A DNA stretch of 64,000 bases from Botrimarina colliarenosi (lineage in GTDB: Bacteria > Planctomycetota > Planctomycetia > Pirellulales > Lacipirellulaceae), in the NCBI RefSeq assembly GCF_007859955.1, contig NZ_SJPR01000003.1, positions 1-64,000 on the forward strand. Direction: 5' to 3'. The position numbers were made by a program, and so were the translations under genes. The notes beneath the pieces are model-generated. The model saw nothing but the letters and a program-made list of their open reading frames with translations, was not told the origin of the DNA and did no database searches. Of this stretch, positions 28,098 to 63,128 are shown one piece after another. Position 1 is the stretch's first letter; each line of letters opens with the position of its first letter.

Positions 28098-28269
28098 AAG
28101 GGAGATGGGGAGATAGAGGGAGGGATAAGGTGATGGCCTATTGGCGGGGCAACGCGTAGCGGTTGCCACACGTCCTTTCTTTCTAAATAAGTCGGCGTGG
28201 TATCGAGTCGTTGTCGCCCCTCCGAACCGCCATCCCCCCATCTCCGTTCATCCCCAATATCTCCCTCCC
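28098..28269. mobile_element. short derivative of the GxxExxY element
   Basis: The left arm (28098-28137) is purine-rich with repeated GGGAGA and GGGATAAGG words. The right arm (28230-28269) is its approximate inverse. Both closely resemble the arms of the element at 51782-52254. Inside, GGCGGGGCAACGCGT matches the start region of that element (GGTGGGGCAAGCCGT). The in-frame tail FFLNKSAWYRVVV resembles the end of the GxxExxY protein. It reads as an internally deleted, non-coding copy between dapA and dapD. Confidence 0.65.
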
Positions 28270-29104: not shown

Positions 29105-29250
29105 CCACAGAGCCACCGAGGGCACGGAGGAATGCACAGAGAAGTTGGACAGGATCAACAGGATTTACCGGATGGCGTTAGAGATAAGGCATCAAAACCT
29201 TATCCTGTCGATCCTGTGAATCCTGTCTAGTTTTCTCAGCGCCTCTGTGG
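29105..29250. repeat. nested inverted-repeat element between dapD and dapB
   Basis: The outer arms are CCACAGAG-type (29105 onward) and CCTCTGTGG (29242-29250). The inner arms are GACAGGATCAACAGGATTT (from 29148) and ATCCTGTCGATCCTGTGAAT (from 29202). The centre is a hairpin, GATAAGG/CCTTATC. All arms consist of short words repeated with slight changes. No ORF is present. The same ACAGGAT words occur in the element at 57906-58054. Confidence 0.85.
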
Positions 29251-29273
29251 TTAATAAGAGAGTAGCAAACCCG

Positions 29274-47616: not shown

Positions 47617-48042
47617 TCAGCCCCTGCTTCTTTTGTCGCCACGGATGAGTTTGGATTCTAGCACGTCACCTGCGCCAACCCCGCGCCGCGGGCCGGCAGA
47701 GCCGATCGCTGAAAAGCGAAAATCGGCCCTCCACCGGTCAGGGCTCGGGGTACGCGCTTTGGCGTCGCGCGCCTGATCGCTCGTTCCGGCTCTCGTCGCT
47801 CGGACTGGGCGTCGACGCCCGGTCCGCTCGGCAGGGCCCGCCCTTGATTCGCGTCGTTGTTACCACCCGCCTTCCCCGCGTGAACGCCCCGACGGGGTTC
47901 ATCACTTAAAAGGTTGCTCAGTACGGGATTCCCCGTCGCTGTGGTAGCCCGGTTGAGAAGTTCGGTTCCCGCCAGGGGGGGCCGTGATTCTCACCAAGGA
48001 TGAATCTTGAAGGCGCAGCCTGTTCCGCAAGGAGCCGCCACT
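47617..48042. other. rpoB leader region
   Basis: The last 426 bp of the 543-bp gap between rplL and rpoB contain no gene. No consensus promoter is found. AAGGAG at 48029-48034 is the rpoB ribosome-binding site. The length suggests a regulatory leader, but no fold is recognised. Confidence 0.4.
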
Positions 48043-51765
<3,723 letters not shown>

Positions 51766-51781
51766 GATCGCGGGCTGCAGG

Positions 51782-52254
51782 AAGGGAGAGGTGGAGATAA
51801 TTGGGGATAAGGGGATGGTCACCCGGTGGGGCAAGCCGTGACAGGCGATGCGGAAATCACCGAACAGATCATCCGGGCGGTCATCAAGGTGCACCGCACC
51901 TTGGGGCCGGGGTTCCTCGAATCGATTTACCACAACTCCTTATTGATCGAGCTAGAGAACCAAAGGCTGCTTGTTGAGTCCGAGAAACAAATCGTTGTGA
52001 TTTACGAGGGAAGGCCCGTGGGAAGCCACCGGCTCGACCTCCTCGTTGAAGGGCGAATTGTTGTAGAGCTGAAAGCCATCGACGACCTCTCGCAGGCCCA
52101 CTACGCCCAGCTGCGGTCCTACCTAAAAGCGAGCCGACTTGAGACGGGCTTGCTTATTAACTTCGCAAAAGAGAAAGCGGACTTTCGACGAGTAGAAGTC
52201 CGCGTCACCGAATAGCCATCTCCCTATCCCCCCTTTATCTCCCCCATCTCCCTT
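51782..52254. mobile_element. GxxExxY-carrying element between rpoB and rpoC
   Basis: A purine-rich left arm (51782-51819) and its approximate inverse (52216-52254) flank a single ORF. The right arm begins directly after the stop codon TAG. The arms are made of GGGAGA and GGGATAAGG words. The whole unit fills the rpoB-rpoC gap. A related, ORF-less copy is at 28098-28269. No target duplication is obvious. Confidence 0.75.
51826..52215 (+). CDS. GxxExxY protein
   Basis: The GTG-started 129-residue protein has the name motif GFLESIY (29-35) within LGPGFLESIYHNSLLIELE. A PD-(D/E)XK-like core RLDLLVEGRIVVELKA (Asp71, Glu81, Lys83) and a C-terminal INFAKEKADFRRV follow. Members are small, function unknown, and are often encoded in short elements inserted between genes; a nuclease-like fold is suggested by the core. 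GC is lower than in rpoB and rpoC. It interrupts an operon that is nearly always contiguous. Confidence 0.88.
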   Translation: MGQAVTGDAEITEQIIRAVIKVHRTLGPGFLESIYHNSLLIELENQRLLVESEKQIVVIYEGRPVGSHRLDLLVEGRIVVELKAIDDLSQAHYAQLRSYLKASRLETGLLINFAKEKADFRRVEVRVTE

Positions 52255-52285
52255 CAAAAACGTTTCCTAGAAAGGAGCGGTCGGC

Positions 52286-56620
<4,335 letters not shown>

Positions 56621-57233: not shown

Positions 57234-57243
57234 AAATGCGTTC

Positions 57244-57317
57244 GGCTGTCAGCCATCAGCTGTCAGCTATTCCATCTCACTGCCTAGCTGATCGCTGCCA
57301 GCCGACCGCTGACAGCC
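57244..57317. repeat. GCTGTCAGC-word inverted repeat before rpsG
   Basis: Left arm GGCTGTCAGCCATCAGCTGT (from 57244) and right arm AGCTGATCGCTGCCAGCCG... GCTGACAGCC (57286-57317) are approximate inverses with 10-bp perfect ends. It ends 8 bp before the rpsG start and leaves no room for a Shine-Dalgarno sequence. The words recur at 62384-62457. Confidence 0.85.
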
Positions 57318-57828: not shown

Positions 57829-57892
57829 GGGGTCAGGCGTCAGGGGTCAGGATTCTGTGTAGAATCCCGGTCCCTGGCGCCTGACCCTTTTT
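57829..57892 (+). terminator. GGGTCAGG-word hairpin with T-run after rpsG
   Basis: Arm 57829-57856 (GGGGTCAGGCGTCAGGGGTC...) pairs with 57861-57887 around a GTGT loop, about 23 of 27 positions, and is followed by TTTTT. It resembles a rho-independent terminator, but is built of the repeated words of the spacer elements. The words reappear inverted at 58064-58088, just before fusA. Confidence 0.6.
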
Positions 57893-57905
57893 CCTGCGCT
57901 GACGA

Positions 57906-58054
57906 GAAGGGGAACCGCCAAGACGCCAGGAACGCGCCAGGAACGCCAAGAAGAGAAGATTAAGACTGGCTAGACAGGATCGACAGGATGCAAGCTTGCT
58001 AGTCATCCTGTAAATCCCGTCGAAGACTTTTTGGCGTCTAGGCGGTTCCCCTTT
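57906..58054. repeat. nested inverted-repeat element before fusA
   Basis: The outer arms are AAGGGGAACCGCCAAGACGC (57907 on) and GGCGGTTCCCCTTT (58041-58054). The inner arms are GACAGGATCGACAGGATG (57973-57990) and CATCCTGTAAATCCCGTC (58004-58021). There is no ORF. The inner ACAGGAT words match the element at 29105-29250. It lies between the hairpin at 57829 and its inverse words at 58064, so it may be nested. Confidence 0.85.
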
Positions 58055-58092
58055 CTGACTGCTGAAGCCTGATACCTGACCCCTGAAGTCCC

Positions 58093-62383: not shown

Positions 62384-62457
62384 GAGCGATCGACTGCCAG
62401 CGGTCAGCTGGCGGTTGTCGTCGCTTGTTGATCGCTGACCGCTGATAGCTGACAGCT
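62384..62457. repeat. GCTGACCGCT-word inverted repeat before rplD
   Basis: AGCGGTCAGC (62399-62408) and GCTGACCGCT (62434-62443) are perfect inverses. AGCGATC and GATCGCT extend the arms. The right arm continues GATAGCTGACAGCT to 6 bp before the rplD ATG. Confidence 0.85.
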
Positions 62458-62462
62458 CTCCT

Positions 62463-63128
62463 ATGCCAAAACTCACCATTCACGACCGCAAAGGCGCCAA
62501 GGTCGGCACTTACAGTGTCGAGGCCGAAGACTTTGCTCCGTCGATCAACAAGCAGCTGCTGCACGACGCCGTGGTGATGTACCAGGCCAACCTGCGGCAG
62601 GGCACGCACCAGACCAAGACCCGTGGTCAGGTCGCCGGCTCGACCAAGAAGCTCTACCGCCAGAAGGGGACGGGCAACGCCCGCGCCGGTGGCAAGCGTT
62701 CGGGCACGCGTCGCGGTGGTGGTCACATTATGGCGATCAAGCCGCGTGACTACAGCTACCGCATGCCGCGGAAGGCCCTGCAGCTCGCGACGCGGATGGC
62801 CCTGGCGACAAAGGTGGCCGACGACGAGCTGGTGGTGATCGACGAGCTGTCGTTCGACTCCCCCAAGACCAGCGACATGGCGGGCCTCATCAAGGCTCTC
62901 GGTTGCGACGGCAGCTCGCTGCTGATCACGACGAGCGGCCTCGACGCAAACGTTTACAAGAGCGCCCGCAACCTGCCGCGAGTGGCGGTGTCGCCGGCGT
63001 CGGACCTCAACGCCCTGTGCCTTCTGAAGGCGAAGCGGCTGTTGATCACGAAGGCCGCCCTTGACCTGCTCAAGGAACAGGCCGCCAAGCACAAGAAGCC
63101 CGCGAAGGAAGAGGCGCCCGCCAGCTGA
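62463..63128 (+). CDS. rplD: 50S ribosomal protein L4
   Basis: The 221-residue protein has LLHDAVVMYQANLRQGTHQT, then RGQVAGSTKKLYRQKGTGNA, RAGGKRSGTRRGGG and a normal C-terminal domain ending in a basic, Ala-rich tail. L4 lines the exit tunnel and often represses the S10 operon. No Shine-Dalgarno: the start is preceded by CAGCTCTCCT from the repeat arm. Confidence 0.95.
   Translation: MPKLTIHDRKGAKVGTYSVEAEDFAPSINKQLLHDAVVMYQANLRQGTHQTKTRGQVAGSTKKLYRQKGTGNARAGGKRSGTRRGGGHIMAIKPRDYSYRMPRKALQLATRMALATKVADDELVVIDELSFDSPKTSDMAGLIKALGCDGSSLLITTSGLDANVYKSARNLPRVAVSPASDLNALCLLKAKRLLITKAALDLLKEQAAKHKKPAKEEAPAS

Follow-up and report, generated by a model that had tools for sequence, protein, structure and literature searches.

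The 64,000-nucleotide stretch of DNA analysed here (the window), from the genome of Botrimarina colliarenosi, contains rpoB (48007–51765, forward strand; located with the ORF list and by tblastn of its tail in relatives, the start codon being unrefined) and, downstream, rpoC (52286–56620, forward strand). The two genes are separated by a gap of 520 bp that holds a single open reading frame (ORF; 51826–52215, forward strand), which starts with GTG at 51826, has an alternative start at 51838 and encodes a 129-amino-acid protein of the GxxExxY family of PD-(D/E)XK nucleases. Two arms of about 40 bp enclose it. The left arm (51781–51818, forward strand; GAAGGGAGAGGTGGAGATAATTGGGGATAAGGGGATGG), which is of the GGGGAT class, forms an inverted repeat with positions 52216–52255 and is matched by our arm model R1 at 51780–51817; the right arm (52216–52255, reverse strand; reverse complement GAAGGGAGATGGGGGAGATAAAGGGGGGATAGGGAGATGG) begins at the base directly 3′ of the stop codon. 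The arms are imperfect, pairing through two overlapping inverted pairs of 24–26 nt at 75–77% and one of 14 nt at 86%, and each comprises about four units of approximately 9 nt (GGGAGATG, GGGGATGA, TGGGGATAA and GGGGATGG). An earlier note, made from the letters of this DNA, had placed a unit at 51782–52254; the unit stands, with its limits slightly shifted (about 51781 to 52255) and its arms less than perfect. The same note had remarked on a right arm in inverse orientation immediately after the stop codon, which is where we find it (52216), and on an ORF of lower GC content with GFLESIY and DLLV...ELKA motifs, and the ORF has both features (GC 0.554, compared with 0.655 for rpoB and 0.645 for rpoC; motifs GFLESIY and LDLLV...VELKA). 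Between the arms there is no ORF other than the PD-(D/E)XK one, and DDE and HUH transposases are absent from the unit. An Rfam search of the unit returned nothing beyond a sub-threshold chance match, and scanning it for promoters and terminators found nothing.

The nuclease-like character that the earlier note had suggested for the protein is upheld at the level of family assignment: profile searches identify a full-length member of TIGR04256 (138.3 bits, cut-off of 35) and PF13366 PDDEXK_3 (135.7 bits, cut-off of 22), well above both thresholds, within a family that has been annotated by motif only. The motif residues are E32, Y35, D71, E81-x-K83 and Q95-x3-Y99; across 78 sequences E32, D71 and K83 are invariant and E81 and Q95 are conserved in more than 90%. 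The Q95-x3-Y99 pair is conserved among GxxExxY proteins, and the QxxxY motif typifies nucleases of the RecB/Cas4 type. The AlphaFold2 model of the protein has a pLDDT of 94.5, and the closest folds in the PDB according to Foldseek are Cas4 SSO0001 (TM 0.6) and lambda exonuclease. A sequence-based search of the PDB gave no match, and a search of defence and phage families gave weak matches only (Cas4b, E = 0.04, and a PHROG of unassigned function). Because the catalytic residues are conserved and the predicted Cas4-like fold is confident, the protein looks catalytically intact.

Arms are a general feature of GxxExxY genes. The B. colliarenosi genome has seven such ORFs, each between arms of its own class. 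In related genomes, inverted arms with a score of at least 20 flank 78% of 101 GxxExxY ORFs compared with 14% of random windows of the same size (55% compared with 4% at a score of at least 24), and arms recur elsewhere; the arm-flanked unit that the earlier note saw between rpoB and rpoC is therefore real. Across the phylum, 19 of 28 GxxExxY ORFs have arms (68%, null 5%), and around one-fifth of GxxExxY ORFs lack clear arms. Most arms are built from three to four degenerate units, each about 9 nt long, such as CACGAAGGACACGAAG, CGCAGAGGACGCAGAG, CGCCAAGGACGCCAAG, CACGAATTACACGAAT, CGCAGATGAACGCAGAT and GGGGATAAGGGGAT, and the left and right arms are of identical class in all 73 elements for which both could be classified. 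A few elements carry CACGAAT arms in reversed orientation, with ATTCGTG towards the ORF (L189 in genome G002 and L353 from the wider phylum). ORFs for four-helix-bundle proteins (TIGR02436) are also armed, with different units of 7–8 nt such as TCAGCTA.

Hairpins of the arm classes that surround the GxxExxY ORFs of B. colliarenosi are also dispersed in this genome without an ORF, as surveyed in a 464-kb sample and by pattern searches. Within the 464 kb there are 23 pairs of neighbouring arms, of which 20 are convergent; one of the 20 encloses a GxxExxY gene and the other 19 do not. The R1 model finds 35 GGGGAT arms in the genome, mostly as convergent ORF-less pairs, so that further copies with these arms, for which the earlier note had suggested a search, exist at many loci. 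Among close GGGGAT pairs, 31 of 33 are convergent (+− 31, −+ 1, ++ 1) and most are 135–260 bp apart. Arm searches and sequence inspection place several examples in the window: a GGGGAT hairpin at 28098–28268 (R1 match at 28231–28268), a CACAGAG hairpin at 29105–29255 with an AGGAT hairpin nested in its tip, and a CCGCCAAG hairpin at 57905–58053 in the rpsG–fusA gap, also with a nested AGGAT tip. This gap holds a stacked and nested arrangement (57829–58091), in which a GGGGTCAGG hairpin is followed by the CCGCCAAG hairpin with its AGGAT tip and then by an arm of the GGTCAGG type. An ORF-less TCAGC hairpin, of the arm class of the four-helix-bundle elements, lies in the rpsL–rpsG gap (57238–57317), and a similar TCAGC-class repeat occupies the rplC–rplD gap (62429–62501); hairpins of this kind seem to gather in the gaps of ribosomal operons.

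The occurrence of other ORFs between the same arms raises the alternative that the hairpins are mobile through another factor and that GxxExxY is incidental cargo. Some of the longer GGGGAT pairs enclose unrelated ORFs, as at L308 (G000:C1:1484000-1485600), at which two adjacent GGGGAT elements with duplicated flanks have ORFs of 207 and 132 amino acids between their arms, as if hairpins were able to pick up cargo. We consider this alternative unlikely. It would not be expected to give hairpin numbers that follow the presence of the ORF, or a class-by-class coupling of arms to protein across sites, genera and the phylum, both of which are seen in the comparisons below.

Hairpin numbers were compared with the presence of the cognate ORF in 44 genomes of the family, all of which are related, so that the counts are not independent. 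GGGGAT arms (R1 model) number 35 in B. colliarenosi (G000), 43 in G008 and 31 in G009, all three of which have the rpoB–rpoC ORF; elsewhere there is 1 in G007 (same genus, without this ORF), 12 in G040 (which has a remnant) and 0 in the 39 others, a test that spans one genus plus G040. The co-occurrence of arms and ORF that the earlier note had proposed to test is seen across genomes, GGGGAT arms being abundant only in the three ORF-bearing genomes of the 44. For the AAGGAAC class, there are 34, 83, 16 and 17 matches in the four genomes that have an ORF of the cognate clade, one of these genomes being from another genus, and 0 in the remaining 40. The contrasts that carry most information are G007 and the AAGGAAC class, which covers two genera. 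No GxxExxY gene was found in G007, G016, G024 and G033; G007, G016 and G033 are almost free of CACGAAT, CGCCAAG, AAGGAAC and CACAGAG patterns, and G024 has some to moderate CGCCAAG (CCGCCAAG) and CACAGAG matches. Further genomes hold hairpins without a cognate ORF, which counts in favour of the cargo alternative: G035, with 178 unit matches, and G004, with 59, are rich in CCGCCAAG hairpins, and no intact cognate ORF was found in either. As the related genome G034 has this cognate ORF in frameshifted form (L323), ORF loss is suggested for these CGCCAAG exceptions, which nevertheless weaken the link between hairpins and ORF. G004 also contains many composite hairpins of about 270 bp that are 73–85% identical, with CCGCCAAG outside and CACGAAT inside (L258–L262), and the single GxxExxY gene found in this genome is of a different class from them.

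The coupling of arm class to protein was examined in a tree of 99 proteins, on which arm class changes only 10 times. The classes were set by simple and coarse rules (the last three unit bases), and a similarity-based Mantel test served as a check: for elements at different sites and in different genera, arm similarity correlates with protein identity (Mantel r = 0.55, null maximum of 0.13). When each protein was compared with its nearest relative from another site and genus, arm class matched in 75% of cases (25% when permuted, maximum of 44%). The arm classes of loci fetched later were mostly as predicted from the nearest protein, and several loci from other classes of the phylum also fit this prediction. 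Gene junctions are reused across genera, a single junction holding as many as nine GxxExxY loci (the junction names gltB–gltD, queC–queE and lysC side were assigned by eye from the flanking sequence), and elements that share a site and differ in their arms belong to different protein clades, matching elements with those arms elsewhere. These patterns indicate that the arms go with protein phylogeny, not with insertion site. In several genera, a phosphoglycerate-mutase-like gene beside lysC (aspartokinase) has a GxxExxY element on either side, the two differing in arm class (L177, L182 and L325).

Within the family, only G000, G008 and G009, three species of one genus, were found to have GxxExxY between rpoB and rpoC; the contrary case named in the earlier note, that all relatives keep the ORF at this site, is therefore not what we find. 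Occupancy of the gap is variable, as the earlier note had supposed, and a full, precise empty site was not found among the relatives. In G007, of the same genus, the gap is 101 bp and contains a likely right-arm remnant (equalled by 3 of 2,000 shuffles in comparison with the G009 arm and by 54 of 2,000 with the G000 arm), because of which the element looks lost rather than cleanly absent. G040, from another genus (g13), has a left-arm remnant directly after the rpoB stop codon (17 of 2,000 shuffles as good), from which the ORF copy probably predates the split from that genus. Other element kinds share the gap: four-helix-bundle ORFs with ATTGCAAATTG arms in G014 and G022, a degenerate one in G040, and a bare CTCACGCAAAGGCGC hairpin in G003, G005, G006 and G043. 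Together with the two remnants, this sharing points to the gap as a hotspot in which the GxxExxY element is old. S23-like four-helix-bundle ORFs with ATTGCAAATTG arms are seen in rpoB–rpoC gaps of other genera (L111, L116 and L099), and the arm classes of these elements may be coupled to the protein as in GxxExxY. In ten more distant planctomycetes, an RpoB scan found short rpoB–rpoC gaps without GxxExxY. The dN/dS between the ORFs of G000, G008 and G009 is about 0.11 for the pairs for which it could be computed, which indicates an ORF that is vertically kept within the genus under strong purifying selection, and therefore no recent jumper. The earlier note's reading of the unit as a small selfish element is supported in part: the arms are shared, the protein is of a nuclease family and occupancy of the gap varies, and a simple jump into this site is too simple a picture.

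This history also bears on whether the unit is an insertion sequence of the classical type, in which a PD-(D/E)XK transposase moves the whole element and hairpin derivatives (MITEs) are left behind. Such an element would account for the terminal inverted repeats, the ORF-less derivatives and the presence of one class at several sites. Insertion-sequence behaviour would not readily explain why the seven ORFs of the B. colliarenosi genome all differ in arm class, why elements keep to the same sites in different genera or why purifying selection is old. Target duplication is not seen either: inspection by eye of the sequence immediately outside about ten GGGGAT hairpins revealed no direct repeat, with no precise empty site for comparison. 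We regard this explanation as improbable.

A different possibility is that the arms act in RNA, pairing and being processed in the transcript and thereby insulating the rpoB and rpoC mRNA, in the manner of 23S rRNA intervening sequences, whose arms pair in RNA and are cut by RNase III. In those sequences, terminal inverted repeats of about 28 bp enclose a small ORF within a unit of about 430 bp (PMC4990558), an anatomy like that of the unit described here, and S23-like four-helix-bundle ORFs with their own arms occur in the rpoB–rpoC gap of related genera. The present unit differs in lying between protein genes, in encoding TIGR04256 instead of TIGR02436 and in lacking a sign of pairing at the RNA level. 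Arm mismatches that are G–U compatible do not exceed A–C mismatches (71 compared with 87 for GxxExxY elements, and 34 compared with 36 for four-helix-bundle elements). Selection on the arms as RNA stems is disfavoured by this lack of G–U bias, RNA pairing does not appear to be the constraint that keeps the arms alike, and action on DNA rather than RNA is likely. We therefore give the RNA explanation very little weight.

We think it rather probable that the 473-bp unit between rpoB and rpoC represents the 'master' copy, with its ORF, in a two-part system similar to REPIN–RAYT, composed of a near-single-copy, vertically inherited nuclease and a population of hairpins. In REPIN–RAYT systems, a single-copy vertical gene is associated with inverted repeats, ORF-less inverted doublets are dispersed, and doublets are more numerous in genomes that have the gene (PMC8049555). 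The GxxExxY elements share the flanking of the gene by inverted copies of the repeat, the dispersal of gene-less inverted doublets in intergenic DNA, the matching of repeat classes to protein, and one ORF per arm class (seven for seven in B. colliarenosi) that is vertical and holds the same sites across genera. They differ in that the protein is a PD-(D/E)XK nuclease, whereas RAYT is an HUH tyrosine transposase, in that the arms are three to four degenerate units of about 9 nt rather than GTAG/CGTC-tagged palindromes, and in having several classes per genome, each with its own nuclease. The arrangement fits better than an insertion sequence because the amplified part is the ORF-less hairpin. 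In this two-part system, a small Cas4/RecB-type nuclease would recognize its own arm sequence, probably binding the arms as DNA in hairpin or single-stranded form, and may nick or trim there. The second part would be the ORF-less hairpins of intergenic DNA, each with two arm copies that face each other across a spacer, which is short or contains cargo. Through the action of the nuclease, and with the help of replication or repair by the host, these hairpins would be copied to other places or maintained there, in the way that RAYT is thought to act on REPINs. The master copy would be inherited vertically in tolerant gaps (rpoB–rpoC, gltB–gltD and queC–queE) and only rarely re-established elsewhere. 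Co-occurrence and co-variation are what we observe, and from these we infer that the hairpins are spread or maintained by the nuclease.

The nearest published idea is the proposal that MITEs in hupL of Thiomargarita originated from YhgA-type PD-(D/E)XK_2 elements (PMC4853749). Both cases tie short inverted-repeat elements to a PD-(D/E)XK nuclease; the Thiomargarita nuclease is from another PD-(D/E)XK family, and the MITEs, with 10-bp direct and 19-bp inverted repeats, form one family for which class coupling is not described. Searches of the literature by arm sequence, by family name and for Planctomycetes with repeats found no description of these elements, and publications that name the GxxExxY family gave no account of arms or hairpins. 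More tentatively, it is possible that GxxExxY proteins in general are arm-specific hairpin nucleases that drive undescribed, genome-wide hairpin populations with many specificity classes per genome, and that S23-like four-helix-bundle proteins run a parallel system with its own arm grammar in the same niches.

If true, the two-part reading would provide a function for a large and widely annotated family that has so far been defined by motif alone, would mean that a lifestyle like that of REPIN–RAYT evolved independently with another nuclease fold, and would explain common intergenic repeats of the phylum (CACGAAGGACACGAAG, CGCAGAGGACGCAGAG and similar). On the broader and more tentative reading, thousands of genes annotated as 'GxxExxY' or 'four helix bundle' would have populations of selfish repeats as their partners. 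As every class of arm has a matching clade of proteins, a DNA-recognition code may be readable by comparison. An essential operon such as rpoBC can, it appears, carry such elements over long times. As the ORF-less repeats are scattered almost only where a matching nuclease exists, the widespread GxxExxY family appears to be the partner to a population of selfish repeats.
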